A stretch of 58,127 nucleotides of DNA. It comes from Candidatus Baltobacteraceae bacterium (GTDB lineage: Bacteria; Vulcanimicrobiota; Vulcanimicrobiia; Vulcanimicrobiales; Vulcanimicrobiaceae). The position numbers were made by a program, and so were the translations under genes. Below the pieces are notes generated by a model. It ran no database searches. It saw nothing but the letters and a program-made list of their open reading frames with translations, and was not told the origin of the DNA. Of this stretch, positions 24,740-39,062 are shown piece by piece (the stretch's first letter is position 1; each line of letters opens with the position of its first letter). Location of the stretch: contig DATJTX010000032.1 of assembly GCA_035502855.1 (NCBI GenBank), positions 1 through 58,127 on the forward strand, given 5' to 3'.

Positions 24740-24832
24740 ATGATGCTTCGCTTGGTGTGCGCGGCGTTGATCGCGCCGTTCGAGATCTGGTACGATCGCA
24801 ACGCAAAGTCTTGTAAGATGCAGGTGTTCTGA
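24740..24832 (+). CDS. 30-aa ORF with a strong ribosome binding site, coupled to the next gene
   Basis: An AGGAGG Shine-Dalgarno at 24728-24733 precedes ATG ATG. The 30-residue product begins MMLRLVCAALIAP, which resembles the start of the next protein (MIYRMICAALIAP), then diverges and ends after EIWYDRNAKSCKMQVF. The TGA stop shares its A with the ATG of the next gene. It is either the relic of a duplicated signal-peptide gene or a leader ORF that delivers ribosomes to the gene behind it. Confidence 0.5.
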   Translation: MMLRLVCAALIAPFEIWYDRNAKSCKMQVF

Positions 24833-25152
24833 TGATCTACCGAATGATATGCGCGGCGCTCATCGCGCCCTTGCTGATCGGCGTCGCAAGTGCGGCCGCA
24901 ACACGCACGGTGCGCGTGCAGAACGAGACGCCGGCGCTGATCGACGTCGGCTGGCTCCAGCCGCCAAGCTCCACCACGCTTTCGAGGTACGGCACATTGC
25001 TCGCGAACACCGCGCAACCGTTCAAGCTCGACGAGGGTGAGGCCAAGGTCGTCGTGAAGTCGAGTGCATGCCACGGGTCCTCCTCCATGCTGGTGCCGCA
25101 GCGGGCCACCACCGTCATCGTCGAGAGTGGGTGCAACCTCCTCGTCAGATGA
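24832..25152 (+). CDS. Secreted hypothetical protein, 106 aa
   Basis: The product has a signal peptide (ICAALIAPLLIGVASAAA) and a mature part of about 83 residues that is beta-rich, with two cysteines (CHGSSSM and SGCNLLVR) that could form a disulphide. I recognise no family. It overlaps the preceding small ORF by one base and the following gene by four bases, so the three are translationally coupled. Confidence 0.65.
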   Translation: MIYRMICAALIAPLLIGVASAAATRTVRVQNETPALIDVGWLQPPSSTTLSRYGTLLANTAQPFKLDEGEAKVVVKSSACHGSSSMLVPQRATTVIVESGCNLLVR

Positions 25153-26087
25153 GGAGTGCCGCGCTCGTGCTCTGCGCCGTCGCCGCAGCGCTCTCGTTCG
25201 CGCCGGCTCGCGCCGCGGCACCCGATCCGTACGCGATCTTCGCCGACGCGCGGGCGTATTGGCTGCAGCAAGTCTATCCACAGCGGCTCGAGTACGACGT
25301 CGCGATCGACGTCACTCAAGGCGGCAGAGAAAAAGTCGAGCGTTACCTGGCGGATTACGACGCGGTGCGCGACGTCATCGCGGTCGATCCGATCAGCGAC
25401 TACCAGCTCGCTCATCCGACGATTCCGAAGGGGGTGGACCTCAGTATTCTCGGCTTGCGCTTGAACAAGCCGCTGCCGCCGATCGATTTTCTCGGTGTTC
25501 CCCGTCTGGCGCCGACCTATTCGTTCGGCATGGCGCCGTTCGTGCCGGCGCCCACGCCGACGCCCTTCAACTCGGCCGCGCTCGTGGCCCAGATCCGCCA
25601 AGAGTTTCACGATCCGAATCCGCGCGAGCGCGCAAGCGCCTCGCCATCGCCCGGCAGCAGCCTGCAAGAGATTGCGACGGTAGTCGCGCGCAACCGCGAC
25701 TACACGATCGCTCTTCTCGGCACCGACACGATCGACGGACATCCGTGCTATCATCTCGGGCTCACGCCGACGCGCGATCCGGGACGCTTTCGTATCCGGC
25801 AGGCATGGATCGACGAGCACACCTTCGCACCCTGGCAATTGCAGGATGCGTTGAACTTCGTGAGCGGGCCGGGGACGAACGTCGCCTGGATGATCCATTT
25901 CGCCGAAATCGGCGGCGCGCATTACGTCAGCGAAGAGGACGCGCAAGCGCCAATGGCGACCGGCGGCGAAATCTACACTAAGACCGCGATTCGTTTCGAA
26001 AACATTCACGCGGTCGCGGATTCGTCGCTACCTCAAGCGCTGGTTGATAGCGTTGGGACGGCCCTGGAAGAACCATCCTGGCCGTAA
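25149..26087 (+). CDS. Secreted hypothetical protein, 312 aa
   Basis: The product has a signal peptide (MRSAALVLCAVAAALSFAPARA) and a mature domain containing DPYAIFADARAYWLQQVYPQ, a proline-rich linker (VPAPTPTPF) and, in the second half, a beta-rich region with IDGHPCYHLGLTPTRDPGRF and RQAWIDEHTFAPWQLQ. That half is reminiscent of periplasmic lipoprotein-sorting-like folds but not assignable. It starts at ATG 25149, overlapping the previous stop by four bases. Its last 25 codons have a diverged copy at 28238-28315. Confidence 0.7.
   Translation: MRSAALVLCAVAAALSFAPARAAAPDPYAIFADARAYWLQQVYPQRLEYDVAIDVTQGGREKVERYLADYDAVRDVIAVDPISDYQLAHPTIPKGVDLSILGLRLNKPLPPIDFLGVPRLAPTYSFGMAPFVPAPTPTPFNSAALVAQIRQEFHDPNPRERASASPSPGSSLQEIATVVARNRDYTIALLGTDTIDGHPCYHLGLTPTRDPGRFRIRQAWIDEHTFAPWQLQDALNFVSGPGTNVAWMIHFAEIGGAHYVSEEDAQAPMATGGEIYTKTAIRFENIHAVADSSLPQALVDSVGTALEEPSWP
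26010..26087 (+). repeat. Direct repeat, copy 1 (3' end of the 312-aa gene)
   Basis: These 78 bases encode the last 25 codons plus stop of the 312-aa secreted protein. Aligned without gaps to 28238-28315, 62 of 78 bases and 19 of 25 residues are identical, with most differences at third codon positions. The two copies bracket the lipoprotein gene at 26136-28055. Confidence 0.85.
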
Positions 26088-26135
26088 ACGGGAGAGCCGG
26101 CTATTAGCCGGCTCCCCAGACTCATGTGCCCTTGC

Positions 26136-28055
26136 TCAGGGGAACATTACGACACCCGTGTCGGAGGGCAGGGACGCCGGCGCGGGCGTTCCCGCGGTGC
26201 TGACCACAGGAGCGTACGATCCGGTATCCGTCACACCGCCGCCGCTGAGCGAAAGCGTGTGCGTGTAGTCACCAGCCAATGTGTTCGTCACTGTCGACGC
26301 AGTGGGGTTCACGGCGACGGCGCACGGTCCGACGTAATTCCCTGCATAATAGCAGCGCGCGAACTGCCGCTCGTAAGCATCACCACTAGCCGGTTGGAAC
26401 CCGCCGACCCCTGTCGGCTCGGGCGACGGCGAGACTGCGTCTTGCACCACCAACTGCGATTCCGGCATGACTTCGAGCCCCGAGCTGGTCAAGAACTCTT
26501 CCCAGAGTGCGCTCGTCGACGGCGAGTTCGTCGTATCGTAGGTGAGCAAGAAAGAGGCGGTCACATATAATCGGTCCTGGATCGCCGTCCATGCGTCCAT
26601 GCCACTTTCCAAGTCCGTCGACGCCACGCATACGAACATCGGATGAATCCCGTTCCCATTTCTAATCGTTGCCGCATAGAGCTCGGCATCTGCCGGGAAC
26701 AACCAATTATCCGACGCATTGTCGGTTACCATGCCGTCTTCGTCGTGGTAGCAGTCGTCGAATCGGCCACCCACGTCTGCCGTATTTCCGCCGAAGAGCC
26801 CAAATGCCGGCGATATGGGTGAGGTGTCCGTCACCCCCTGCGACAGGCCGTTAAAAATCGTGGGAACGGAGTCATTGCTGTTTAAGTATTCTTCCATCGC
26901 AACCTCGCGAGGAATCCAGGTCGACTCCGAATATGAGGATCCGTTGTAACAAGGCAGGCCCGGCTGATAATTGCTGAGCCCGTAATCATCAAGCGGTCCC
27001 GCGTCGTCCTCCATGACGGCACTCCAATTCGACGTCATCTCCGAGCCCTTATTGTGTTGGACCCACCCCACGTACTCGCTCTGCAACGTAGAAGAACCTG
27101 GATCGATCTGATACTCCGTGGTTCCGTCGTAGTCGAACTCTACCTGAGTCGACGAATTCTGCTCAGTGCAAGAGTCATATGAAAAGGCGCTAGGATAATT
27201 TTCGAGCCAGTCCGTGTAAAGGTCACCGGAAACGCGATTGATGTCGACATACAGAGCGACATCCATAGGGGGTTCCGCATTCAGAAAACTCTGCTGATAG
27301 CTTCCGGTTCCGGCGCCCGAGGTCTGAACCCAACTGACGTATGGCGCTGCTGAGCTCGCACTTCCGGCGTAATAACCCGGCGCCGAAGTAGATGCCGCCA
27401 GAGCTTCGATCCAGGTCGTGACGTGGTTTGCGTCCGCCGGCAACGGTGTCGGAGTCGCAGCGACGTTGATGCTGGTCGCGTGAATATCGCGACCGAGGCT
27501 GCCATACCCCGCCAGGGATACCGCGGCTTCCAGCGGCGGAACCGTCGTCCCATCGTCTTCGGAGTTCAGGACGACCGTGCTTTGCGTCGAACCGGTGAGG
27601 AGCGTGAAGGTATAACCGCTCGACCCCTGGGCAATGACGTAACCCGAAGCGGTCACTTGCGGTACAGGCGACGAATACGTGCTAACGTAAGCCGTGCTCG
27701 CAACGGATTGCGGACAGCCTCCAGACACCGTTCCCGTTCCGGTGACCTGAATGTATTGACCGCTAGTGGGTAGCGGCGATGGGTCAAACGTTGTTGAGTT
27801 TGAGTAATATGCGTTGATGTATCCGCAGGGGTTGCCGGACTCGAAGTTGATGACCTCCGAGCTCGTATTAATTCCGTAGACTTGGCCTCCGATGGTAAAC
27901 GAACCACTTGGAACATCCATCATCACGCGCACGCGTTGGCCGGGACCGTTCACAACCGATGTCGTTTTTGGAATCGATCCGGAATCGCCACCATTACATG
28001 CAACAAGAACGCCGGCTGCTAAGCCGACAATGAGAAAAGCAAATCGCGCACGCAT
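26136..28055 (-). CDS. Large lipoprotein with glycoside-hydrolase-like architecture, lower GC
   Basis: The 639-aa protein has a lipoprotein signal ending LVACNGG, a beta-rich N-terminal region (about 30-190) resembling the OB-like DUF5666 fold, a central part with barrel-like features (VALYVDINRVSG, WSAVMEDDAGPLD, CYHDEDGMVTD, GIHPMFVCVAST) and a C-terminal beta-sandwich. The last part parallels the C-terminus of the lipoprotein at 51233-52777, which is a clearer GHL15-type putative glycosidase; the acidic pairs are candidate catalytic residues. The start ATG 28055 is set by AGGAGGTG 6 bases upstream; two earlier ATGs lie before that site. Codon third positions are much less GC-rich than in neighbours, suggesting transfer. 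A stem before a T-run lies upstream (28101-28132). Confidence 0.7.
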   Translation of the reverse strand: MRARFAFLIVGLAAGVLVACNGGDSGSIPKTTSVVNGPGQRVRVMMDVPSGSFTIGGQVYGINTSSEVINFESGNPCGYINAYYSNSTTFDPSPLPTSGQYIQVTGTGTVSGGCPQSVASTAYVSTYSSPVPQVTASGYVIAQGSSGYTFTLLTGSTQSTVVLNSEDDGTTVPPLEAAVSLAGYGSLGRDIHATSINVAATPTPLPADANHVTTWIEALAASTSAPGYYAGSASSAAPYVSWVQTSGAGTGSYQQSFLNAEPPMDVALYVDINRVSGDLYTDWLENYPSAFSYDSCTEQNSSTQVEFDYDGTTEYQIDPGSSTLQSEYVGWVQHNKGSEMTSNWSAVMEDDAGPLDDYGLSNYQPGLPCYNGSSYSESTWIPREVAMEEYLNSNDSVPTIFNGLSQGVTDTSPISPAFGLFGGNTADVGGRFDDCYHDEDGMVTDNASDNWLFPADAELYAATIRNGNGIHPMFVCVASTDLESGMDAWTAIQDRLYVTASFLLTYDTTNSPSTSALWEEFLTSSGLEVMPESQLVVQDAVSPSPEPTGVGGFQPASGDAYERQFARCYYAGNYVGPCAVAVNPTASTVTNTLAGDYTHTLSLSGGGVTDTGSYAPVVSTAGTPAPASLPSDTGVVMFP

Positions 28056-28100
28056 CGCCCACACCTCCTGCATCATAGGTAGCGCGTCGACCGTAATCGC

Positions 28101-28132
28101 AAAAAGGGCCGAAAGTCCCTGACATAAGGCCC
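28101..28132 (-). terminator. Possible terminator for the glycosyltransferase transcript
   Basis: On the minus strand GGGCC and GGCCC form a 5-base stem around a long loop and are followed by TTTTT (28105-28101). It lies about 130 bases after the glycosyltransferase stop and just before the lipoprotein gene. The short stem makes the call tentative. Confidence 0.35.
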
Positions 28133-28237
28133 ATTAGGGGTCTTGACTCGAGGGTTGTCGTAGCCGCCGCCGCCGGACGGTAAGCGCATGCTCAGAATTG
28201 ACATCACCACGCTAGCCGTAAAGAGAAATCGCGACCC

Positions 28238-28315
28238 GCGGTTACGGATTCGTTGCTGCCTCAGGCGCTGGTTGAGAGCGCGGGGAGCGCGCTGGAAGAG
28301 CCGTCGTTGCCGTAG
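28238..28315 (+). pseudogene. Remnant 3' end of a paralogue of the 312-aa secreted protein
   Basis: The plus strand reads AVTDSLLPQALVESAGSALE and ends LP plus TAG, matching 19 of the last 25 residues of the 312-aa protein and stopping at the same codon. The frame upstream loses clear similarity within about 10 codons and has no start or signal peptide. It is therefore the tail of a former tandem paralogue, cut off when the lipoprotein gene arrived or by a deletion. It overlaps, antisense, the last codons of the glycosyltransferase gene. Confidence 0.75.
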
Positions 28316-29463
28316 CGGCCGGCGACGATGTCGCGGTAGATTTCATCATATGCGCGCGCGTTGACGCGCCAGGTCAGGTGTTCGCGGGCAAAGGTGTATG
28401 CCGCGCGTTCGAATCGTTCGCGAATCGGTTGCCCGGCCAGTACGCGGCGCAGGCGATCGGTGAGCGCGTCCGCGTCGCGAGGCGGAATGAGGTACCCGGT
28501 CTCACCGTCCCGAACGATTTCCGGAATGCCGCCCACGTTGGTCGCGACCACCGCGCGTCCCGAACACATCGCCTCGCAAACCAATAGCGGTAACCCCTCG
28601 GCATAGCTTGGAAGCGTAACGACATCCGCCGCCGCGTACAATGTGGCAAGTTTCTCGTGTCCCACCACGCCCGGAAAGAGCGCATCGATCTTTGCCGCCC
28701 GCAACGTACGCTCGATTTCCGGCTGCATCGCGTTCCCGCCGGCGAAGATGAATTGCGGCTGCATCTCACGCAGCGCGAGCGCAGCCGCTTGCAACTCGGC
28801 CATGCCTTTTTGCGCGAGCATGTGACCGGCGTACATCACCGTGGGCCGATTCGGATGGAGCCCGAGCTCGAGACGCGCCGCCACGCGATCACGCGGGAAG
28901 AAGATATCTTCGTCCGCCCCATTGAAGATCACCCGCGGATCGCGCGCGCCGAGCATGCGAAGCTTCCCCGCGACGAAGTCCGAGACGCCGACACAGAAGG
29001 CCGCGCGAGTGACGATCTCGTGAGAGAGTGCTCGCAGCGAATCGCGCAGGAACGGTGTCTTGTATGTCTCGGTGCCGTGCCCGGTCAAGACGTACGGTAC
29101 CGGCGAGTCGAGCGCCATGACACCGGCCGGAATCAACCCGTGAACCTGCACGACGTCAGGAGTAAACGCGGCGATCTCTCGCGCGATCGCCCCTTGCCGC
29201 TGCCGGCGGATGCTCCCGATCGCCAGGTTCGCCGGTCCGATCAGCACGCGCAACGTCCTGACCCGAAAGCCGTCATACTCGTACGCGTCCGGGATGCTAC
29301 GATAGCGCTTCCATTGCTTGCGCAACGGCGGCGCCCACGGCGCCCAACGCAGGACGCAAATCTCATGTCCAAGCTCACGCAGTGCGCGGAGATGCAACAG
29401 GTTGAAGGTGCCGTCGATGCTTTGTGGCCAGGGAAAGTTGTTGACCATCACCAGGATACGCAC
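28261..29463 (-). CDS. GT4-family glycosyltransferase
   Basis: The 400-aa protein is a GT-B fold glycosyltransferase of family 4: N-terminal opening MRILVMVNNFPWPQSIDGTF, PTVMYAGHMLAQKGM at the start of the donor domain, and the E-x7-E donor motif in SYAEGLPLLVCEAMCSGRAV. It transfers an activated sugar, probably to a surface glycan. The last 18 residues (RYGNDGSSSALPALSTSA) are read antisense through a remnant of another gene, so the native C-terminus has probably been replaced. It diverges from the deacetylase-like gene at 29502 (38-base gap). Confidence 0.9.
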   Translation of the reverse strand: MRILVMVNNFPWPQSIDGTFNLLHLRALRELGHEICVLRWAPWAPPLRKQWKRYRSIPDAYEYDGFRVRTLRVLIGPANLAIGSIRRQRQGAIAREIAAFTPDVVQVHGLIPAGVMALDSPVPYVLTGHGTETYKTPFLRDSLRALSHEIVTRAAFCVGVSDFVAGKLRMLGARDPRVIFNGADEDIFFPRDRVAARLELGLHPNRPTVMYAGHMLAQKGMAELQAAALALREMQPQFIFAGGNAMQPEIERTLRAAKIDALFPGVVGHEKLATLYAAADVVTLPSYAEGLPLLVCEAMCSGRAVVATNVGGIPEIVRDGETGYLIPPRDADALTDRLRRVLAGQPIRERFERAAYTFAREHLTWRVNARAYDEIYRDIVAGRYGNDGSSSALPALSTSA

Positions 29464-29501
29464 GCGATAATCTCCTGGCTATCTGGGAACAGTCGTAAGC
29501 G

Positions 29502-30887
29502 ATGCTCACGCAGGTGCGAGTTACCAGTGTCAACGCGCTGCTTTACGCGCTGCGGGAGCTCGGCCGTCGGGCCGGTGCCGGCGCGCGGGAGGTGCGACGC
29601 TGGCGCGTTGCGGTCGAAGCCGATCGCACGGTGCTCTTCCCCGACCCGAACTCGCAGCGGCGCATCGTCTTTCCGGTCGATCGCTCCAAGCCCGAGCGCA
29701 TTGGCGCTTTGTGCGCGCACGAGCCCTCGCGCTACGAACCGGACATCGTGGTGCCGTTCGAAGAGCGAACCGCCGGAGGGCCGCTCTTTGTGGCCTGCGC
29801 TCCCGACGAGATCGAGTGCCGAGGCGACATTCTCACGGCGACGTTGTGGACGCTTGCGCGGGTTGAGGAGCGCGGTGCCGGCACGCTCGATGAACACGGC
29901 CGATTTCGCGCCGCCGCCTCGATAGCCGCGCGCTGTGAATGCCTCGAGCGTCCGATCGTCGACGAATACGGCCTTGCATTTGGGCAGGCATTGACCGCGC
30001 TCATGCCCGGTTGGAAGCCGGCGCCGCGGTGCTTGCGGGTCAAGCTCAGCCACGACATCGACCGCATCGGTTATCCCCGCCGGCTGCGTTCGACCGGAGC
30101 CCTGCTGTTGCGTTATCGTAACCTGCCGGCGTTCGTCCGCGAACTGATCTCGTTTACCGGAGCGGCTCGCCCGGCGTACCTCGAAGCGGTCTTGCAAACC
30201 GCAGCGATCTCGGCGCAGCGTCGCTTGGATTCGGCCTTTTATTTCAAGGCGGCCTTGCGGACGACGCAGTGGGATACCGGCTACGACCTCCTCCAGCCGC
30301 CGATCCGTCGCGTGATCGAGCATCTCGTCGAAGGCGGTTGCGAAATCGGACTGCACCCCGGTTACGACACCTTTCATTCGCAGACGATGCTCGATGCCGA
30401 GGTCTCGCATCTGCGTGGTCTCGTCGGCGGTGTGCCGATCGGCGGGCGTCAGCATTATCTGCGTTGGGATTGCTCGACTTGGCTCGCATGGGAACGCGCC
30501 GGTCTGGCATACGACAGTACGCTGGGATATGCAGAGGCGATGGGGTTCCGTGCCGGCACGTCGATCCCGTACCATCCCTGGTCGATCGAAGAGGACCGGG
30601 AACTCGCGCTCTTGGAGGTCCCGCTGATCGTGATGGACTGTACGCCGATCGACTACATGCGCCTCGAGCCCGAGCGAGCGCTGGCGCGTATCTCTGCGAT
30701 CGTGGAGCGCACGGCGGCGGTCGGCGGCGTGTTCACCTTGCTCTGGCACAACGCGAGCGTGATCGAACCGCCGTACGCGAAGTTGTATCCACGCATCCTC
30801 GACTTGCTCGGCGCGGCGCAAAACTATGACTGGAGGAGCGAAGGTGAACTCCCGCCGCTCCCGCTCCTCACGCACGGAGCATCATAA
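29502..30887 (+). CDS. Polysaccharide deacetylase-like (NodB-fold) protein
   Basis: The 461-aa protein has an N-terminal domain of about 170 residues (DRTVLFPDPNSQRRIVFP, DEIECRGDILTATLWTLAR) and a NodB-like carbohydrate esterase domain. The family's first motif appears as KLSHDIDRIG (H-D-x-D) near 180, then EIGLHPGYDTF and RQHYLRWDCSTW, and near the C-terminus TLLWHNASV. The usual TFDDG and HSxxH forms are replaced by these variants, as in capsule-locus members of the fold; metal-dependent deacetylation of a surface glycan is likely but not certain. It converges on the PHP gene with a 20-base overlap. Confidence 0.8.
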   Translation: MLTQVRVTSVNALLYALRELGRRAGAGAREVRRWRVAVEADRTVLFPDPNSQRRIVFPVDRSKPERIGALCAHEPSRYEPDIVVPFEERTAGGPLFVACAPDEIECRGDILTATLWTLARVEERGAGTLDEHGRFRAAASIAARCECLERPIVDEYGLAFGQALTALMPGWKPAPRCLRVKLSHDIDRIGYPRRLRSTGALLLRYRNLPAFVRELISFTGAARPAYLEAVLQTAAISAQRRLDSAFYFKAALRTTQWDTGYDLLQPPIRRVIEHLVEGGCEIGLHPGYDTFHSQTMLDAEVSHLRGLVGGVPIGGRQHYLRWDCSTWLAWERAGLAYDSTLGYAEAMGFRAGTSIPYHPWSIEEDRELALLEVPLIVMDCTPIDYMRLEPERALARISAIVERTAAVGGVFTLLWHNASVIEPPYAKLYPRILDLLGAAQNYDWRSEGELPPLPLLTHGAS

Positions 30888-31623
30888 TCCGGCGCAGCGT
30901 CTTCCACGGAAGAGAAAGCAACAGCGGAGCGAGTTTGCGGTATTGCCGGCGCTTGGCGGCCTTGATGACGGCTCCCATGCGCAGTCCCGTGCGGCGCGGA
31001 AGCTCGCCGCGCACGCTGGCGTACAACATGGCCTCGCGGCTTTGCGCGAGCAGTGAGGCGGGGTTGCGTGGAAGTTCCGGAAAGACCGCGCGGAACAGTC
31101 CGATTTCCCAAGGGAAGTGGGCGTCGCTGCCACAGAGCGCGCGTTCGATCCCGAGCCGGGCAAATGACGCCTCGGCCTGCACAAATTCGCCTTCGTCATA
31201 GCGGCCGTTATACAGCTCGCAGAAATCGATCCCAGGGTTATCGGCGAAGATCGCGGGGAAGCGCGCTGTGCCGAACGTGCGGATCGGGTGCGGTAAATAG
31301 GCGATTCCGCCTTGTTCGTGAATCTCGGCGATGACGTCGGCGAAGGCGCGGCTGCGAATTTCTCGCGTCACGTAGAGACCAATGATATCGCCCAGGTCGC
31401 TCTTGACCTCAATACCGGGAATCACGAGGAAGTCGCGGTATCGATTCGCTTCCATCGTGATCAGCGCGCCGCGGACCGTGTCATGATCGGTCACGGCAAT
31501 ACCGGAGAGGCCGCGGCGGCGAGCGATCTCAATGGCGAGCTTGGGCGGCGTGAGCGAATCGAACGACGCGGCGGTGTGCACGTGGAAATCGATAGCGTGC
31601 CCGCGCGTGCCGTTGCTGGACAT
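30868..31623 (-). CDS. PHP-domain phosphoesterase
   Basis: The 251-aa protein starts with the PHP metal site: DFHVHTAASFDS (first His-x-His), GIAVTDHDTVRGA, IPGIEVKSD, and further on YLPHPIRTFG and GSDAHFPWEIG. All PHP metal-binding blocks are present, so it should be an active phosphatase or phosphoesterase of the TrpH/YciV type. The substrate in this glycan locus is unknown. Its ATG overlaps the stop of the ATP-grasp gene (TAATG), which ties the two together. Confidence 0.88.
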   Translation of the reverse strand: MSSNGTRGHAIDFHVHTAASFDSLTPPKLAIEIARRRGLSGIAVTDHDTVRGALITMEANRYRDFLVIPGIEVKSDLGDIIGLYVTREIRSRAFADVIAEIHEQGGIAYLPHPIRTFGTARFPAIFADNPGIDFCELYNGRYDEGEFVQAEASFARLGIERALCGSDAHFPWEIGLFRAVFPELPRNPASLLAQSREAMLYASVRGELPRRTGLRMGAVIKAAKRRQYRKLAPLLLSLPWKTLRRIMMLRA

Positions 31624-32720
31624 TATTTCGTGAGGCTTCCGGCCATCGCCAACAATCCCGCGGCCGTCGGCAACGGATCGAACAAACTTAGATCGGTGCG
31701 CACGTCACGCGAGAAGACGTTTCGTACGAACCGCACGCGGAATTCGGGATAGCGGACGAAGCTTTTCAGCCCGACGGGAATCACCCATTGATACGTGAGG
31801 CCTTCCCGGTAGCCGCTGTCGAGGGGCGCCTGCGCGCCCATCAGGCGCTGCGCAATCCACACCGGAAAATTGCACCCGGCTTGGATCGCCAAATCGAGCG
31901 ATCCCCACAGTTTCGGGTTGACCTCGATCAGGTAGTATTCGCCGTCGCGATCGCTGCGCTTGAACTCCACCATCGCGACACCATGCCAACGCATCGACTC
32001 GAGCAGCGAGCGCCCCAGTTCGCGCAGGTGGGGATCGCGAATCGATCGAGCGATTACGCTGGGACCGCCTTCCTTCGGATATTGCACTAAGCGCTCGTGC
32101 ATGAAGTAGCCGACTTCCCGCCCCTCGTCGAACAATGCAAAATAACCAAAGCCGTTTTCGCCCGGTACGAATTCCTGCGCGAGATAATCTCGGATCGACT
32201 CGCCCAGGCCGAGCGCATAGGACGAGGCTTCGCGCGCGTTGCGGGCCACGTGGGCGCCGGCGCGCGGATGTTTGAATACGAGGGGTGGTTCGATCTCTCG
32301 CCAATCCTGCGCCGCGAGGGTCTTTGGGATCGGAATTCGCGCATGCGCAGCGTGTTCGAAGGTACGCCGCTTGTCTGCCGCGATTGCGAAGCTTTCGGCG
32401 GACGGCAACAGGAGCGGCGCGTTGAATTGCAGGCGATTGCGCACGAACAGCTCGACCATGTCGAGTCCAACCGGAATAACCGCATCGTAGCGTAGTTCGT
32501 TGAAGTGCGCGCGCAGCGCAGCGACGGTCGACTCGACCGATATGTTGGGATCCGGATAGCGGAATGTTTGCGCGCAGTGCCGCGACCAGAACCCCCCCAC
32601 CGTCGAGGGCGGTATCGAGCCCCGCTCGCCGACTGTCACGCGAAAGCCCGCGCTGCCCAGCGCACGAACGGCCGCGAGGGCATTTCGATAGGACCCGTCA
32701 GTGACGAACACGCGGTGCAT
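31623..32720 (-). CDS. ATP-grasp ligase-like protein
   Basis: The 365-aa protein has a PreATP-grasp N-terminus (VFVTDGSYRNALAAVRALGS) and an ATP-grasp domain, with PPLVFKHPRAGAH as the ATP-binding lysine strand, IRDYLAQEFVPGENGFGYFA, and the metal-binding GEYYLIEVNPKLWGSLDLAI. Such enzymes join a carboxylate to an amine or other acceptor with ATP; in a glycan locus this may attach an amino acid or modify a sugar acid. It is overlapped by the PHP gene and follows a glycosyltransferase gene with a 9-base gap. Confidence 0.87.
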   Translation of the reverse strand: MHRVFVTDGSYRNALAAVRALGSAGFRVTVGERGSIPPSTVGGFWSRHCAQTFRYPDPNISVESTVAALRAHFNELRYDAVIPVGLDMVELFVRNRLQFNAPLLLPSAESFAIAADKRRTFEHAAHARIPIPKTLAAQDWREIEPPLVFKHPRAGAHVARNAREASSYALGLGESIRDYLAQEFVPGENGFGYFALFDEGREVGYFMHERLVQYPKEGGPSVIARSIRDPHLRELGRSLLESMRWHGVAMVEFKRSDRDGEYYLIEVNPKLWGSLDLAIQAGCNFPVWIAQRLMGAQAPLDSGYREGLTYQWVIPVGLKSFVRYPEFRVRFVRNVFSRDVRTDLSLFDPLPTAAGLLAMAGSLTK

Positions 32721-32729
32721 GGCGCTATC

Positions 32730-33941
32730 CTAGGCCGATGACGAAGAACGCCGTAGGGGCCCCGGGGTGCGCGCCGTTGGGAACGTTGGCCTAGCGCTGT
32801 CCGTGATGTGTTCGTAGAGTGCCGTAAGGCGTGTGAGCTCGCCATGGAAGCTGTAGCGCGCACCCGCAGCGGCGCAGTTTGCCGCGAACGACGCGCGCAA
32901 CCCCTCGTCCCTCGCAAGACGCAAGAGTGCTTCGCCGTGTGCGTTCGCGTCCTCCGGGGGTACCACGATGCCTGCTCCCGACGCTTTGATGATCGCGGCG
33001 ATGTTGCCGAGATCCATGCCGACGAGCGGCAGGCCGAACATGAGATTTTCGAAGAGCTTGTTCGGCATGCCGCGCGCGTTGTTCTCGACGTCGATCAGCG
33101 GCATGTACCCGATCGCTGCGTGCGCGACATACGACCAGGCCGTTTCCTGCGTTACCAGACCCACGTTTCGCACGTCGGCGCGCTGTGCGCGATCGAGGAG
33201 ATCCGCGGTCCCTTCGCCGTAGGGCGATAGGTCGATCGGGCCAAGGTTGACGATCGGCCAGGAGCAACCGCGGGCCCGCAGGTATTCGGCCGCCGCGACC
33301 ATCGTATGAAATGCGCGCAGCCGCGAGGCGCCGCCGGTGTGGAGAATATACGGCGTTCCGCCGAGCGGATGCGCGCTCGCTCGAATGGCGGCCATCTCGG
33401 CCGGTGAGATATAAGGAAAGTTGCGCACGAGCGCCACGCGATCGTCGCCGACGAGTTCGCGGTAGCGCTCTCGCATGGCTTCGGCGACGATGACCACGCC
33501 CGCGAACCGCCGTAAGGCGAGGCGTTCCAGAACATCATAGACCCGCGAGAGCGCGCGGCGCAGAGGCCGGGGGATCCATTCCGAGTCGGCGATGCGTTCG
33601 AGATAGAATTCGTGGACGTCGTAGACCAGCGTGCGCCCGAGGTAGGCGGGCACCAAGGCTGCGAGCAGCAATTCGGGATCGTGGATGTGAAGAATGCTGT
33701 TCGGATGCGCGAGCATGACCAGCATCGCCCGCAGATCGCGGCCCAGACGTTTCCAGCGCGGTCCGCCGCGATTGCCGAGCGGGAGGATTCGCACGCCGTC
33801 GTGCTCCCCAATCGTCGCCTGGGTTCCCGCAATTCCGACGTGAAAGCCCGCATCGTGCAGGCTGCGAACTTCCTTGTAATAGATTCGCCCGTCCAGTGGA
33901 CCGTGGACCGTCGAAATATGCAGGATCTGCGGCTCGCTCAT
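32730..33941 (-). CDS. Glycosyltransferase, GT-B fold
   Basis: The 403-aa protein begins MSEPQILHISTVHGPLDGRI and shows VRSLHDAGFHVGIAG, LHIHDPELL, LVYDVHEFYLERI and, in the C-terminal half, PYILHTGGASRLRAF and FENLMFGLPLVGMDLGNIAA. This is the pattern of GT4-like enzymes of exopolysaccharide loci. The start at 33941 overlaps the acyltransferase stop by 4 bases (ATGA); the open frame upstream is antisense-like and rejected. Confidence 0.86.
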   Translation of the reverse strand: MSEPQILHISTVHGPLDGRIYYKEVRSLHDAGFHVGIAGTQATIGEHDGVRILPLGNRGGPRWKRLGRDLRAMLVMLAHPNSILHIHDPELLLAALVPAYLGRTLVYDVHEFYLERIADSEWIPRPLRRALSRVYDVLERLALRRFAGVVIVAEAMRERYRELVGDDRVALVRNFPYISPAEMAAIRASAHPLGGTPYILHTGGASRLRAFHTMVAAAEYLRARGCSWPIVNLGPIDLSPYGEGTADLLDRAQRADVRNVGLVTQETAWSYVAHAAIGYMPLIDVENNARGMPNKLFENLMFGLPLVGMDLGNIAAIIKASGAGIVVPPEDANAHGEALLRLARDEGLRASFAANCAAAGARYSFHGELTRLTALYEHITDSARPTFPTARTPGPLRRSSSSA

Positions 33942-34948
33942 CCAGCCCTCTGCGAGGTCAGTTGCGAACGCAGCGGCTTGCGGCGCGCGTTGGGTTGAAA
34001 GTCCTCGCGTGCGACGCGAATACCGTAGCGTCGCAGGAAGCTGCGGAAATCGGCGAGATAGGGCCGGTCCTCGACCACGATCAGACGGCCGCTCGGGTGA
34101 TCGAGAATGTTCACACCGCGTTCGAGCAATGCGTCGCGCTCTTCGAGTTCGAGTGGCCGGTTGACGACCATCAGCAGGTTCCCGCGGCCCAACTCGCGCC
34201 CGTCGTCGACCTTGATCTGTGCGCGGGCGCCGGGCATCCCGCGCTCGCCGTAGGCAGCCAGCATGCGCTCCGCGCGGTGCAGGCGTTCGGTCTCGCCCAC
34301 CGCCGGCATCGCCGGCTCGCTCACCGTCTTGGCCGGCATTCCCGCTGCGAAGACGTTGGGCGGGACGTTCTTCGTGATCACCGCGCCAACCGCGATGATC
34401 GAATCGTGACCGATCGTCACGTTGGCCTGCACGGTCACGCGCCAGGCAATCCACACGCGGTCCTCGATGACGACCGGGCCGTAGTTCCACGGGCTCCCGC
34501 AGAGGTAATCGGACCACGAGCCATGCGTGAAGATGAACGTGTGCCCGCCGATGCCGACCTGGTCTCCGACGGTAATCCCTTCGCCGGGTTCGATCCAGCA
34601 AAAATTTGCGATCGACGAGTGATTACCGATCGCAAAACGCGACGACTCGATCAGCTCGCCGTAGATGACCGCGAACGAAGCGACGCGCGTGTAGGAGCCG
34701 ATCCGAATCGCGTTCGCTTTCATGATCGTCAGCGGATTGACGTTGCTGTGCGCCCCGATCTCGAGCGTGCGGGCATGAACCACGGCCGCGGGTCCGATAC
34801 GCGATCCCTCGCCCATCCGCAGATCGCGTACGGCAAGCACCGTGCCGAACCGAATGCGCGCGCCGCGCCCGATTCGCGCGCCCATCAGCCGGCGCACCGC
34901 CACGTGCAGCGGTGATGGGAGCAGGGAGAGGAGCACGGCTAGGAACAT
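33938..34948 (-). CDS. Left-handed beta-helix acyltransferase (hexapeptide repeat family)
   Basis: The 336-aa protein has a hydrophobic N-terminus (MFLAVLLSLLPSPLHV) and a run of hexapeptide repeats from about 30 to 190, including RIGRGARIRFGT, LEIGAHSNVNPL and ITVGDQVGIGGHTFIFTHGS, with the catalytic-type histidine in HTFIFTHG. The C-terminal 130 residues form an extra domain of unknown role. It probably O-acetylates a sugar of the glycan. It overlaps both neighbours (10 and 4 bases). The start was placed at ATG 34948; the longer frame is antisense-like. Confidence 0.85.
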   Translation of the reverse strand: MFLAVLLSLLPSPLHVAVRRLMGARIGRGARIRFGTVLAVRDLRMGEGSRIGPAAVVHARTLEIGAHSNVNPLTIMKANAIRIGSYTRVASFAVIYGELIESSRFAIGNHSSIANFCWIEPGEGITVGDQVGIGGHTFIFTHGSWSDYLCGSPWNYGPVVIEDRVWIAWRVTVQANVTIGHDSIIAVGAVITKNVPPNVFAAGMPAKTVSEPAMPAVGETERLHRAERMLAAYGERGMPGARAQIKVDDGRELGRGNLLMVVNRPLELEERDALLERGVNILDHPSGRLIVVEDRPYLADFRSFLRRYGIRVAREDFQPNARRKPLRSQLTSQRAG

Positions 34949-36342
34949 ACTGCGGGTTCTCCTTCGAAGGCTTGCTCGAGCGAGTGTCGGCGCGCGTTGA
35001 CGGCGGCGATCGCGGTCGTCCAGCGCTGCGCGGGCCGCGGCAATTCCCAGTAGAGCGCACCGACTCGACCCGGGAGCTGCGCGCCCTCGAAAACCGTGTT
35101 GTGCCACAGCACGCTTGCTGCGCCGCCGGGAAACGCATCGATCATGTCCAACACCCGGCTGCACAGCATACGCGGATGGACTCGCGCCGCGCGCGCGTGC
35201 GTGCGCAGCGCACCGTCCATAATTGCCAGCGGCAACTCGTAAAACGAGTATGGGCGCTCACTCGCGAATCGATACGGCCGATAAACGAACGACGCGCCCG
35301 AACGGAAGCCGACGCGTTCGGCGAAGCACACGGTGGTGTCGTACTTCACGTCGCCGACCTGTTCGATCGCCTCGAAGAGATTGCCGCCGGCGTAACGGAT
35401 CCAGTGCGCGCGAACGCCCTCCACGCGAAAGCCGCTCGCCCGAAGCGCGCGTACTTCATCGCCAAGGGTGCCGTCCGGAAGACTCATATAACTCACGTGG
35501 ACGCCGAGCTCGCCGCCCGAACCCTGCAGCTGCTGCAGCGTGCGCTGGATTCGCGGGTCGCTAAGGGTGTAGTTCGCATCGCGCGCGCAGCCATTGCGGC
35601 AGATGACGTATGACGTTGAAGCGATCTCGCGCCGTGCTTCCCTGACGAGCATCGTAGGAATGCAATCCAGCGGCGAACGCCCGCGCAGCATGCCGCGAAG
35701 TCCGGCCAGGACGATCTGCGCCGCAAGCGCGGGATCGCGATCGACGAGCATCGCGATCGCGACGTTTTTGAGCAAGCGGCGCGCGTTCCCAAGCGCGCTC
35801 GTCGGTAGGTAGTCCAGATCGTGCGACGCCGCGATCAGGCTCGGCCCCGAAGGCAGCTCGAGTCCCAGCGAACGTGCCAGCTCGAGCATGGCGATGCTTG
35901 CGTACGGAATCGTCGGATCGAGGCCGTAGCGGCCGTGCAGCGACGCCGCGAACGGAACCCGCCCGACATCGTCGCGTTCGGTCACGCTGTACTCGTCGGC
36001 GTGCGAGATCCATTCGAAGATTTCACCGAGCCAGTCGACGCTGCGCGCATCAGCGTGGAAGACCGGTGTGGCCCGCAGGCCGAGGCGATCGTAGATCGCG
36101 TGCGCGGCGAGCGCCACCGTCTTCGGAGGGGGCGCCGGTTCCGACGGCGGGCGCGCAACGTAGAGCGCGGGCAACACGACTTCGCCCTCGCGCCGCTCTC
36201 CTTGGCCGCCGTAGTACAAGCGCAGCGTGGGGCGCAATCCGTAGATCGCGCAGAACGTTCGGAACGCGTAGTCGATGCGCGCGCGAGTCGTAGGTGAAAC
36301 ATCGCGGCCGAACCGCAGCGACGCCGGACCGGGTTCGCCCAT
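34939..36342 (-). CDS. Second polysaccharide deacetylase-like (NodB-fold) protein
   Basis: The 467-aa protein parallels the one at 29502-30887: an N-terminal domain containing EIFEWISHADEYSV and YGLDPTIPYASIAMLELA, then the H-D-x-D motif in IAASHDLDYLP, GGELGVHVSYMS, and SVLWHNTVFEG near the end. Sequence similarity between the two is modest, so they probably act on different substrates. The start at 36342 overlaps the reductase stop (TGATG); the acyltransferase gene starts within its last codons. Confidence 0.78.
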   Translation of the reverse strand: MGEPGPASLRFGRDVSPTTRARIDYAFRTFCAIYGLRPTLRLYYGGQGERREGEVVLPALYVARPPSEPAPPPKTVALAAHAIYDRLGLRATPVFHADARSVDWLGEIFEWISHADEYSVTERDDVGRVPFAASLHGRYGLDPTIPYASIAMLELARSLGLELPSGPSLIAASHDLDYLPTSALGNARRLLKNVAIAMLVDRDPALAAQIVLAGLRGMLRGRSPLDCIPTMLVREARREIASTSYVICRNGCARDANYTLSDPRIQRTLQQLQGSGGELGVHVSYMSLPDGTLGDEVRALRASGFRVEGVRAHWIRYAGGNLFEAIEQVGDVKYDTTVCFAERVGFRSGASFVYRPYRFASERPYSFYELPLAIMDGALRTHARAARVHPRMLCSRVLDMIDAFPGGAASVLWHNTVFEGAQLPGRVGALYWELPRPAQRWTTAIAAVNARRHSLEQAFEGEPAVCS

Positions 36343-37154
36343 CAGGCCATGGCCAGGCCGCCGTTCACGTGGAGAACGGCGCCGGTGATATAGGCGGAAT
36401 CGTCTTCGCACAGGAAGCGGACGACCCGTGCGATCTCCTCGGGCCGGCCCAGGCGTTTGACCGGAATCTTCTCGACCACCTTCGCGAGCGCAGCTTCAGG
36501 CATCGCTTCGATCATCTCGGTTGCGATGAACCCCGGAGCGACGGCGTTGACCGTAATACCCTTGCCGGCCAACTCGAGTGCAAGCGACTTGGTGAATCCG
36601 AAGAGTCCCGCTTTCGACGCCGCGTAGTTGGCTTGCCCCACGTTGCCGGTCGAGCCGATCACGGAGCTGATGTTCACGATCCGTCCGGATCCGCGCTCGA
36701 TCATGTGCTCGAGCACGGCTTTGGTCATGTTGAACGCACCGGAGAGGTTGACCTGAACGACGTTCTGCCAATCCTCGTCCGACATCTTGCGCACGGTCCG
36801 ATCGAGCGTGATGCCGGCGTTGTTCACGAGAAAGTCGATGCGTCCGTGTTCTTCGAGCACCTCGCCGACGATGCGCCGGCAATCGCCGGCATGATCGACG
36901 CGTCCCCGATGCGTCGATATCGAGTGCCCGCCGGCGTGATGCGTCGCGGCGCAGCGCTCGGCCGCGTCGGCACGCATGCAGTAACCGGCGGCGACACGCG
37001 CACCCTCGCTCGCCAGGGCCTGCGTGATCGCAAGACCGATGCCGCGCGTTCCCCCGGTGACGAGCGCGACGCGTCCGGTGAACATGCGCGCCGCGCCCCT
37101 CGCCTTCGGTAGCGCGGCGAACCCGTTCCGAGTGATCGTTCCCGTGACCGCCAT
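36342..37154 (-). CDS. Short-chain reductase, FabG/PhaB type (3-oxoacyl-ACP or acetoacetyl-CoA reductase)
   Basis: The protein has the Rossmann motif TGGTRGIG, NNAG, and the catalytic Ser-Tyr-Lys in ISSVIGSTGNVGQANYAASK. The C-terminus (KIPVKRLGRPEEIARV, HVNGGLAMA) looks as much like PHA-type acetoacetyl-CoA reductases as like FabG, and the gene is not among fatty-acid synthesis genes but at the head of the glycan operon. A lipid-linked or 3-hydroxyacyl modification of the glycan would fit. The start is ATG 37154 (270 aa), with ATG 37085 as a shorter, family-typical alternative. Confidence 0.85.
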   Translation of the reverse strand: MAVTGTITRNGFAALPKARGAARMFTGRVALVTGGTRGIGLAITQALASEGARVAAGYCMRADAAERCAATHHAGGHSISTHRGRVDHAGDCRRIVGEVLEEHGRIDFLVNNAGITLDRTVRKMSDEDWQNVVQVNLSGAFNMTKAVLEHMIERGSGRIVNISSVIGSTGNVGQANYAASKAGLFGFTKSLALELAGKGITVNAVAPGFIATEMIEAMPEAALAKVVEKIPVKRLGRPEEIARVVRFLCEDDSAYITGAVLHVNGGLAMA

Positions 37155-37274
37155 TTCGGACCAATCGTACAACCGCGGCCGGGTGACGGCAGGGCGCAAC
37201 CCACCCACGATGTTAGGGCCATGTGGGGAATCACCGTTCGCGCGGAAGGGGGAGGAAAAGGTCCGGCCGCGTTC

Positions 37275-37280
37275 TATACT
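37275..37280 (+). promoter_or_regulatory. -10 element of the tRNA-Leu promoter
   Basis: TATACT lies 33 bases before tRNA-Leu. The -35 region is not obvious. A small hairpin (CGCCGC/GGCGG) lies between it and the tRNA. Confidence 0.45.
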
Positions 37281-37312
37281 AAGCGGTCGCCGCAAGGCGG
37301 CCTGGCAAGCCG

Positions 37313-37394
37313 GGGCAAGTGGCGGAACTGGCAGACGCGCTGGATTTAGGATCCAGTGGGGCAACCCGTCAGAGTTCGAGTCTCTGCTTGCCCA
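37313..37394 (+). tRNA. tRNA-Leu (TAG)
   Basis: Acceptor arms GGGCAAG and CTTGCCC pair; the anticodon loop TTTAGGA gives TAG; the long variable arm (TGGGGCAACCCG) marks it as a class II tRNA. CCA is not encoded. Confidence 0.95.
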
Positions 37395-37421
37395 AGGAAC
37401 TCGCTTCGCTCGTTCCTTGGG
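37391..37421 (+). repeat. Palindrome overlapping the 3' end of tRNA-Leu
   Basis: CCCAAGGAAC and GTTCCTTGGG form a perfect 10-base stem around an 11-base loop. The first three bases are the end of the tRNA acceptor arm, so folding of the hairpin and of the tRNA compete. It may terminate transcription or influence 3' processing. Confidence 0.6.
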
Positions 37422-37437
37422 AATAGGCAATTAGCGA

Positions 37438-37757: not shown

Positions 37758-39062
37758 GTGAGCAGCTCGACCTTGAATCGCCTTGCGCCGACGCAGGTGG
37801 AATTGGAAATCCCGATCACTCCCGAAGAGATGGCCGCGGCACAAGAGCGCGCGTTCCGGCGCCTGGCCAAGAACGTCAAGCTGCCGGGGTTCCGGGCGGG
37901 TAAGGTGCCGCGTAAGGTGTTCGAGCAGACGTACGGTTCCGAAACGATTGCGAGCGAAGCGCTCGAGGACGTCGTACCCGAGGTCTACGCGCGCGCGGTG
38001 CGCGAGCACGAATTGGTCCCGGTCGATCGTCCGAAGATGGAGTTGCTGCCTGCCGAGGAGGGCAAGCCCTCGCGCCTGAAGGCGACCGTCGCGGTACGCC
38101 CCGCGATCGAGCTGCACGAGTACAAGGGGATCGTGATCGAGCGCGAGGAGCCCAAAATCGGCGACGATGACGTGGAACGCAGTATTTCCGCGCTGGCCAA
38201 AGAACGCGCGACCCTCGTTCCGGTCGAACGTCCGGCGCAGCTCGGTGACGTCGTCACCGTGGATTACGAGGGCAAGATCGACGGGGTCGCATTCGAGGGC
38301 GGCAGCGCGACGGGATCGATGACCGAGCTCGACGAGAACCGCTTCATCCCGGGCTTCGCATCCGGCATCGCCGGAATGCGTGCCGGCGAAACCAAAGACG
38401 TGGAAGCGACCTTTCCGCCAGACTACGCAAACGCAGATCTTGCCGGGAAGACCGCGGTCTTTACGGTCACCGTTCACGACGTCAAGGCGCTCGAGCTTCC
38501 CGCCCTCGACGATGAATTCGCGAAGGCGATTTCCGAAAACGAGACGCTCGATGCACTGCGCAGCGACGTGCGCAAACGGCTGGAAGCGATCGCGCAATCG
38601 CGCGCACGCCGCGCCGTCGGCAACGCGCTGATGGAAAAACTGATCGGAGCGCACGATTTTCCGCTTCCCGAAGTGCTCGTCGAACGCGAGATCGATAACA
38701 TGATCAACGATCTTGCCGCTCAAGTGGCGCAGAGCGGCGCGAATTTCGATGAGTATCTCAAGGAGCAGGGGAAGAGCGCCGAAGACTTGCGGGAGACCTT
38801 TCGCACCGATGCCGAGCAGCGGGTGAAGGGAACGCTCGTGATCGAGGAGATCGCCCGCGCCGAGGGGATCAATGCGACACCGGCCGACGTGGCCGAGGAA
38901 CTCGGTGCCCTCTCACGGCAATACGGTCAGCCCGTCGAGCGGATTCGCAAAGCGCTGGGGAATAACGTGATCTCGCTGATGGAGGGGATCGTCCGCAACA
39001 AGACGCTCGAGTTCCTCGTCGACAACGCCAAGGTCGTGGGAACCGCGGGCGCAAATCCCTAG
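37758..39062 (+). CDS. tig: Trigger factor
   Basis: The 434-aa ribosome-bound chaperone has the three usual parts: an N-terminal ribosome-binding domain with the signature GFRAGKVPRKV at about 44-54, an FKBP-type prolyl isomerase domain (about 155-240, VTVDYEGKIDGVAFEGG), and the helical C-terminal cradle. The start is GTG 37758. The stop TAG (39060-39062) belongs to a CTAG that flanks the foldback element at 39063-39339. No clpP or clpX follows, as often would. Confidence 0.96.
   Translation: MSSSTLNRLAPTQVELEIPITPEEMAAAQERAFRRLAKNVKLPGFRAGKVPRKVFEQTYGSETIASEALEDVVPEVYARAVREHELVPVDRPKMELLPAEEGKPSRLKATVAVRPAIELHEYKGIVIEREEPKIGDDDVERSISALAKERATLVPVERPAQLGDVVTVDYEGKIDGVAFEGGSATGSMTELDENRFIPGFASGIAGMRAGETKDVEATFPPDYANADLAGKTAVFTVTVHDVKALELPALDDEFAKAISENETLDALRSDVRKRLEAIAQSRARRAVGNALMEKLIGAHDFPLPEVLVEREIDNMINDLAAQVAQSGANFDEYLKEQGKSAEDLRETFRTDAEQRVKGTLVIEEIARAEGINATPADVAEELGALSRQYGQPVERIRKALGNNVISLMEGIVRNKTLEFLVDNAKVVGTAGANP

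Follow-up and report, generated by a model that had tools for sequence, protein, structure and literature searches.

The window analysed here is a 58,127-nucleotide stretch of DNA from Candidatus Baltobacteraceae bacterium (GenBank assembly GCA_035502855.1, contig DATJTX010000032.1), and our subject is the 3' end of one of its genes, B312, which encodes a secreted protein of 312 amino acids (aa) that reaches the LolA_like model exactly at threshold (PF17131, 30 bits for a cut-off of 30). Downstream of B312, and on the opposite strand, lies a gene for a lipoprotein (LIPO), beyond which the last 25 codons and the stop of a B312 occur a second time, here antisense to the end of a glycosyltransferase (GT) gene. 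We refer to the 3' end of the intact B312 as tail 1 and to the orphan copy as tail 2. Both stand in front of, or within, a block of glycan-related genes (the island) that extends to a tRNA-Leu gene (Table 1).

That the 3' end of B312 is duplicated was confirmed. In the same frame, 62 of 78 bases and 19 of 25 residues are identical between the two tails, with their stops (TAA and TAG) aligned, and blastn, which aligned the pair in the next register, gave 63 of 78 (E = 2e-16); as fractions, the identity is 0.76 for protein and 0.80 for DNA. The 16 differences are distributed as 1, 4, and 11 over the first, second, and third codon positions (P = 0.004 for 11 or more third-position changes among 16). 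On both counts, namely a recurrence with common frame and stop position and changes mainly at third positions, the preliminary description of this DNA was accurate. The longest exact run shared by the tails is 11 bases, the second-best ungapped match to the tail in the whole window has only 41 of 78 bases in common, and the limits of the repeat are abrupt, as the flanks of both tails are without similarity (7-11 of 30 bases per block). Moreover, no third copy was found in the 3.33 Mb genome of the organism with either the whole B312 protein or the DNA of 26000-28330 as query. A chance similarity was rejected given the blastn E value, and so was a dispersed repeat, the tail being present at just two places in this genome; a known RNA was likewise rejected, since Rfam returned nothing above its gathering score in the window except tRNAs.

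Table 1. Features of the B312 locus, with positions counted from the first base of the window.
Feature	Position	Strand	Remarks
B312	25149..26087	+	312-aa secreted protein; tRNA-Lys/tRNA-Leu neighbourhood conserved in relatives
Tail 1	26010..26087	+	3' end of the intact B312 (25 codons plus stop)
Glycan island	26088..37250		11.2 kb; none of 12 relatives has it at this site
Strong hairpin	26090..26117		Just past the B312 stop; -24.1 kcal/mol, z -5.8
LIPO, 639-aa lipoprotein	26136..28055	-	Long-branch member of a family with a GHL15-like (putative hydrolase) domain
LIPO upstream region	28056..28237		Abrupt junction with tail 2 at 28237/28238
Tail 2	28238..28315	+	Orphan duplicate of a B312 3' end (25 codons plus stop)
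GT, GT4-type glycosyltransferase	28261..29463	-	Final 17 residues and stop antisense to tail 2
DUF7033/VimE-like deacetylase	29502..30887	+	Below the cut-off of that model
PHP-domain protein	30868..31623	-	
ATP-grasp protein	31623..32720	-	
Second GT4-type glycosyltransferase	32730..34601	-	Mechanical open reading frame (ORF); real start inside
Mechanical ORF	33938..35164	-	
490-aa ORF	34939..36411	-	No Pfam match
Short-chain dehydrogenase ORF	36342..37430	-	Over-long start overlaps tRNA-Leu; real start inside
Island right edge	about 37235-37250		Directly 5' of the tRNA-Leu GGAGGAAAA box, which is conserved
tRNA-Leu(tag)	37313..37394	+	Right neighbour of the island
Trigger factor	37758..39062	+	Right flank, conserved

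With regard to the source of the second tail, identity over the last 25 codons ranges from 0.23 to 0.92 (aa) among pairs of same-genus orthologues, and from 0.17 to 0.55 between the window tail and 15 B312 genes of other genera. Since the identity of the two tails lies within the same-genus range and above every comparison with another genus, tail 2 would stem from the window's own close lineage, whether from a congeneric donor or from a young duplicate.

To place the locus among its relatives, B312 was sought in 60 near genomes, 45 of which matched at E<=0.001, and in 99 genomes of the taxonomic family, 18 of which matched at E<=1e-80. Here, 25 B312 regions were compared, 12 with the synteny of the window and 13 with B312 relatives located elsewhere. 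The order B312, tRNA-Leu(tag), tRNA-Gly(gcc), and trigger factor is found in 12 of the 25, and in each of these 12 only 28-131 nt, with no insert, lie between the B312 stop and the tRNA-Leu; the same interval measures 11,231 nt in the window. A conserved box 5' of the tRNA-Leu (AGGAAAA...GCGTTCTAT...GGTCGCC) is kept in the window at about 37250, and thus the right edge of the island falls just before it. Apart from a tandem pair in one genome (see below), a weak protein match (L053), and a 35-base DNA match (L106), no extra pieces of B312 were detected in the 25 regions, and none of the viral contigs searched had a B312 relative. In scans of genome contigs, the nearest relatives were metagenome-assembled genomes of Candidatus Eremiobacterota; the single-sequence query returned no locus, and the alignment query returned seven, none of them shown to be congeneric.

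Content seems to vary on the left of B312 as well, since the tRNA-Lys-B312 interval differs among relatives (about 0.1 to 6.6 kb in L041, L043, L046, L048, L101, and L102). Genomes of genus g33 (L038, L103, and L104) carry an additional tRNA-Lys(ctt) 5' of B312. A gene for a 106-aa secreted protein (24832-25149) precedes B312 in the window, and just upstream of that gene its 5' end is partly repeated, with 24740-24780 resembling 24832-24872 (87% over 23 bases, E = 7e-4) and encoding a signal-peptide start like its own. From this similarity, 24740-24780 appears to be another truncated tandem copy at the B312 locus. The hairpin that follows the B312 stop is probably a terminator between this gene and the convergent LIPO.

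More conspicuously, the GT gene terminates inside tail 2. NCBIfam models for the GT family stop at about residue 380 of the 400 residues in the window GT, and in eight GT homologues the protein extends 1-17 residues further than its aligned part, while residues 384-400 and the stop codon of the window GT are the antisense of tail 2. Because the residues past the usual end of the family are tail 2 antisense, the GT gene was presumably joined to the stop region of a B312, within which it now ends, and tail 2 would then be a seam within the island. This antisense overlap, as well as the absence of 26088 to about 37250 from relatives, adds to what had been described before. It also affects how the tail differences are to be read. 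The pair gives dN 0.13 and dS 0.59 (nonsynonymous and synonymous divergence) in the B312 frame, and dN 0.15 and dS 0.64 in the GT frame; given that a third position in one frame lies opposite a third position in the other, the bias toward third positions cannot tell divergence as B312 code from constraint on the GT.

LIPO begins with MRARFAFLIVGLAAGVLVAC, a lipobox-type signal. Compared with 54 genes of its own genome, its GC content (0.577 vs a mean of 0.643, sd 0.019, z -3.5) and its third-position GC content (GC3; 0.647 vs a mean of 0.783, sd 0.025, z -5.4) are both the lowest, with none of the 54 genes below it, and so the earlier remark that a visibly less GC-rich gene on the opposite strand separates the tails is borne out. 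The genome also contains three paralogues of LIPO, which deviate less (GC 0.616-0.628). LIPO itself had no match in Pfam, NCBIfam, or PDB, no solved structure was retrieved with its single sequence or a profile, and an AlphaFold model computed without an alignment (predicted local distance difference test score 32.1) was not used. It does align, however, with 20 relatives (alignment A2), and the family is characterised by a signal peptide with a lipobox and a conserved C-terminal domain. Unlike the seven of 21 family members that match the GHL15 model (PF14885, putative glycosyl hydrolase), LIPO is without a Pfam match and has an Asp at alignment position 433, where at least 90% of rows have Glu. 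In a tree of 27 rows, LIPO sits within a 15-row clade (support 99/95) drawn entirely from its own taxonomic family, on a branch of 1.58 (median 0.42) and with a best identity of 39%. As the odd composition accompanies fast evolution of a group-native family member, composition alone shows no distant donor; on the strength of this alignment and tree, we regard LIPO as belonging to an Eremiobacterota family of GHL15-like putative hydrolases and not as a lone alien.

The LIPO and GT families co-occur in glycan clusters of other Eremiobacterota (L128-L134, L136, L154, L158, and L159), much as they lie close together in the window. Six of these loci (L128-L133) were chosen since both families matched there, though the GT family is also present in all five other-genome loci chosen for the lipoprotein alone (L134, L136, L154, L158, and L159), and in neither of the two own-genome loci chosen in this way (L126 and L127). 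In one of the clusters (G092, L154), the lipoprotein gene converges with the GT gene, and their 3' ends overlap by 19 nt (9723 and 9705). Whereas each of the two genes in the window ends against a B312 tail, there is no such tail between or near them in the other clusters. The preliminary description had envisaged a lipoprotein gene arriving by itself, and this has to be given up, as the family accompanies the GT family in the glycan clusters of relatives and the insertion amounts to 11.2 kb instead of 2.1 kb. The region upstream of LIPO (28056..28237) matched nothing significantly in the rest of the genome or in the relatives' loci compared, and conserved elements were looked for upstream of the lipoprotein gene with none found. 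GHL15-like lipoproteins occur in multiple copies per glycan cluster (L128, L130, L131, L133, L134, L158, and L159), with up to four matches in L133, and their N-terminal parts differ (DUF5666-like, laminin G-like), as if diversifying.

From the domains it encodes, the block between B312 and the tRNA-Leu is predicted to function in glycan synthesis. Two of its ORFs were assessed by eye: the one at 33938..35164 is presumably left-handed beta-helix acyltransferase-like, going by a motif, and the 490-aa ORF is one that we take to be deacetylase-like. The deacetylase at 29502..30887 had no relative at E<=1e-25 in other genomes among the 117 searched in the class, and is the island's best candidate for a recently imported gene. 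A literature search on exopolysaccharide and glycosyltransferase in Eremiobacterota returned nothing. Codon use in the remaining island genes matches that of the genome, and this speaks against an assembly error in which unrelated pieces of a metagenome-assembled genome were joined at the repeat. While the genome is in 39 contigs and the relatives do not have the arrangement, the tails cannot have misled the assembler, as they differ at 16 of 78 positions and share no exact run above 11, and we regard such an error as very improbable.

The position of the repeat, at the 3' end of a gene and closing with its stop, together with an island that adjoins a tRNA gene, could suggest site-specific integration by an element with a replacement 3' end of its own, the tails then being attL/attR-like repeats. 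Yet, no site-specific recombinase domain was found in the island ORFs that were searched with Pfam, no tail copy is present near the right edge of the island (about 37.2 kb), such that the repeat brackets just 2.2 kb of the 11.2 kb, and the repeat has no identical core. A recombinase-borne element was rejected on the grounds of the missing recombinase and the missing right-edge copy, and we find integration of this kind hardly credible.

Instead, the arrangement may represent a displaced 3' end, a reading to which we give about even credence, and in which DNA carrying a second B312 3' end and the lipoprotein gene was inserted at the 3' end of the resident B312. The ancestral order would have been B312, tRNA-Leu, tRNA-Gly, and trigger factor, as seen in the 12 relatives. 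A glycan block starting with the GT gene would have been joined directly behind a B312 stop codon, the GT losing its own end and reading 17 codons into the antisense strand of B312; the order of events is inferred. Later, a piece bearing the lipoprotein gene as well as a diverged B312 3' end of its own would have recombined in, with one side anchored by homology inside B312 and the other attached by illegitimate joining about 26 codons ahead of the stop of the resident gene. As a result, B312 would have gained a new 3' end (tail 1) and its old one (tail 2) would have moved 2.2 kb downstream, while B312 remained intact and the lipoprotein gene brought along its own upstream region. The mirror image, where the GT block brought its own donor tail, is equally possible, and the native tail may be either of the two. 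A single displacement event of this type would explain both the repeat and its limits, and tail 2 may have survived because it supplies the C-terminus and stop of the GT. What was found at the locus is an orphan 3' end that follows an intact B312 and is separated from it by inserted DNA, and in the relatives a site with no insertion.

Alternatively, B312 may have been duplicated in tandem, with the copies diverging, the glycan block settling behind the second one, and the lipoprotein gene replacing the body of that copy until 25 codons were left, which is close to what had originally been proposed. This would yield a final sequence identical to that from a displaced 3' end, and the mainly third-position differences between the tails agree with it. 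There is also a precedent, as one of the 12 syntenic relatives (G011; L041: 9191-10972) has a second B312 at the same place, the two genes lying in tandem directly 5' of the tRNA-Leu. However, unlike in the window, both G011 copies are full length, with nothing between them and proteins 64% identical. Moreover, the tails of this pair resemble each other and not the window tails, so that it looks like a separate event and is apparently an independent duplication. In the other 11 relatives, B312 is present once and nothing is inserted. A tblastn search of the island for remains of a second B312 body was negative, the next best hit having E = 0.2, and one more step is needed, duplication plus replacement. 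Of the original proposal, the second B312 3' end, with differences that resemble coding divergence, and the odd GC content between the tails stand, as does a full tandem paralogue without the lipoprotein gene in one relative, though the replaced body does not find support. In addition, no B312 piece was seen near any of the 13 loci with lipoprotein relatives, a result that counts against the paralogue at the family level; as these loci are distant homologues elsewhere in their genomes, a lineage-specific paralogue stays compatible with it. A full paralogue with a replaced body is thus one possibility, albeit not the simplest, and we consider it rather unlikely.

A further option is a Campbell-type single crossover, in which a circular molecule with a B312 3' end and the lipoprotein gene integrated at B312 and duplicated the shared segment. 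This predicts direct repeats exactly around the inserted DNA, as observed, and in a conjugation study in E. coli (PMC3240628), comparable partial lacZ duplications of 109-950 bp are reported beside inserted DNA after single crossovers, an observation that speaks for a displaced 3' end as well. Still, the 2.2 kb unit has no plasmid or replication genes, and a 78-bp segment that is 79% identical with an 11-base run makes a poor substrate, although it was once perhaps longer or better. We view this as improbable.

Several observations weigh against a displaced 3' end. No donor or intermediate genome was found among the genomes searched, and the sole congeneric genome examined (G001, 74% complete) has neither B312 nor the trigger factor in its assembly. 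Furthermore, the GT frame too would lead one to expect a third-position bias, so that it is no proof of divergence as B312 code. Lastly, there is no orphan tail in the other B312 loci compared, and a recurrent mechanism is not shown. A more far-reaching proposal would have the B312 3' end as an entry point for the serial addition of glycan genes, each with its own B312 3' end, and the antisense of an orphan tail recruited as a GT C-terminus (overprinting); this we hold to be quite doubtful.

If the 3' end of B312 was indeed displaced, the closest parallels would be in Vibrio type VI secretion system (T6SS) clusters, where PMC5361080 describes orphan immunity genes and 3' ends that have been displaced, an outcome that it attributes to homology-facilitated illegitimate recombination and for which it also cites Rhs loci with orphaned 3' regions. 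As in the T6SS and Rhs cases presented there, the window would have a conserved 5' part, a new 3' end inserted with its cargo, and an old 3' end pushed downstream. In contrast to those cases, the protein here is LolA-like and secreted and not a toxin, only 25 codons are displaced with only one orphan seen, and a convergent gene now uses the orphan tail for its C-terminus.

The recombination scar at the B312 locus is genuine but of a known kind, and does not by itself amount to a new mechanism. There is a modest twist in that a convergent glycosyltransferase takes its end from the orphan tail. In a phylum that is uncultivated, the scar is a clear fossil of surface-polysaccharide genes accumulating next to a housekeeping locus with neither an integrase nor a transposon, and illustrates how blocks of sugar-processing genes can build up at one site by ordinary gene insertion.

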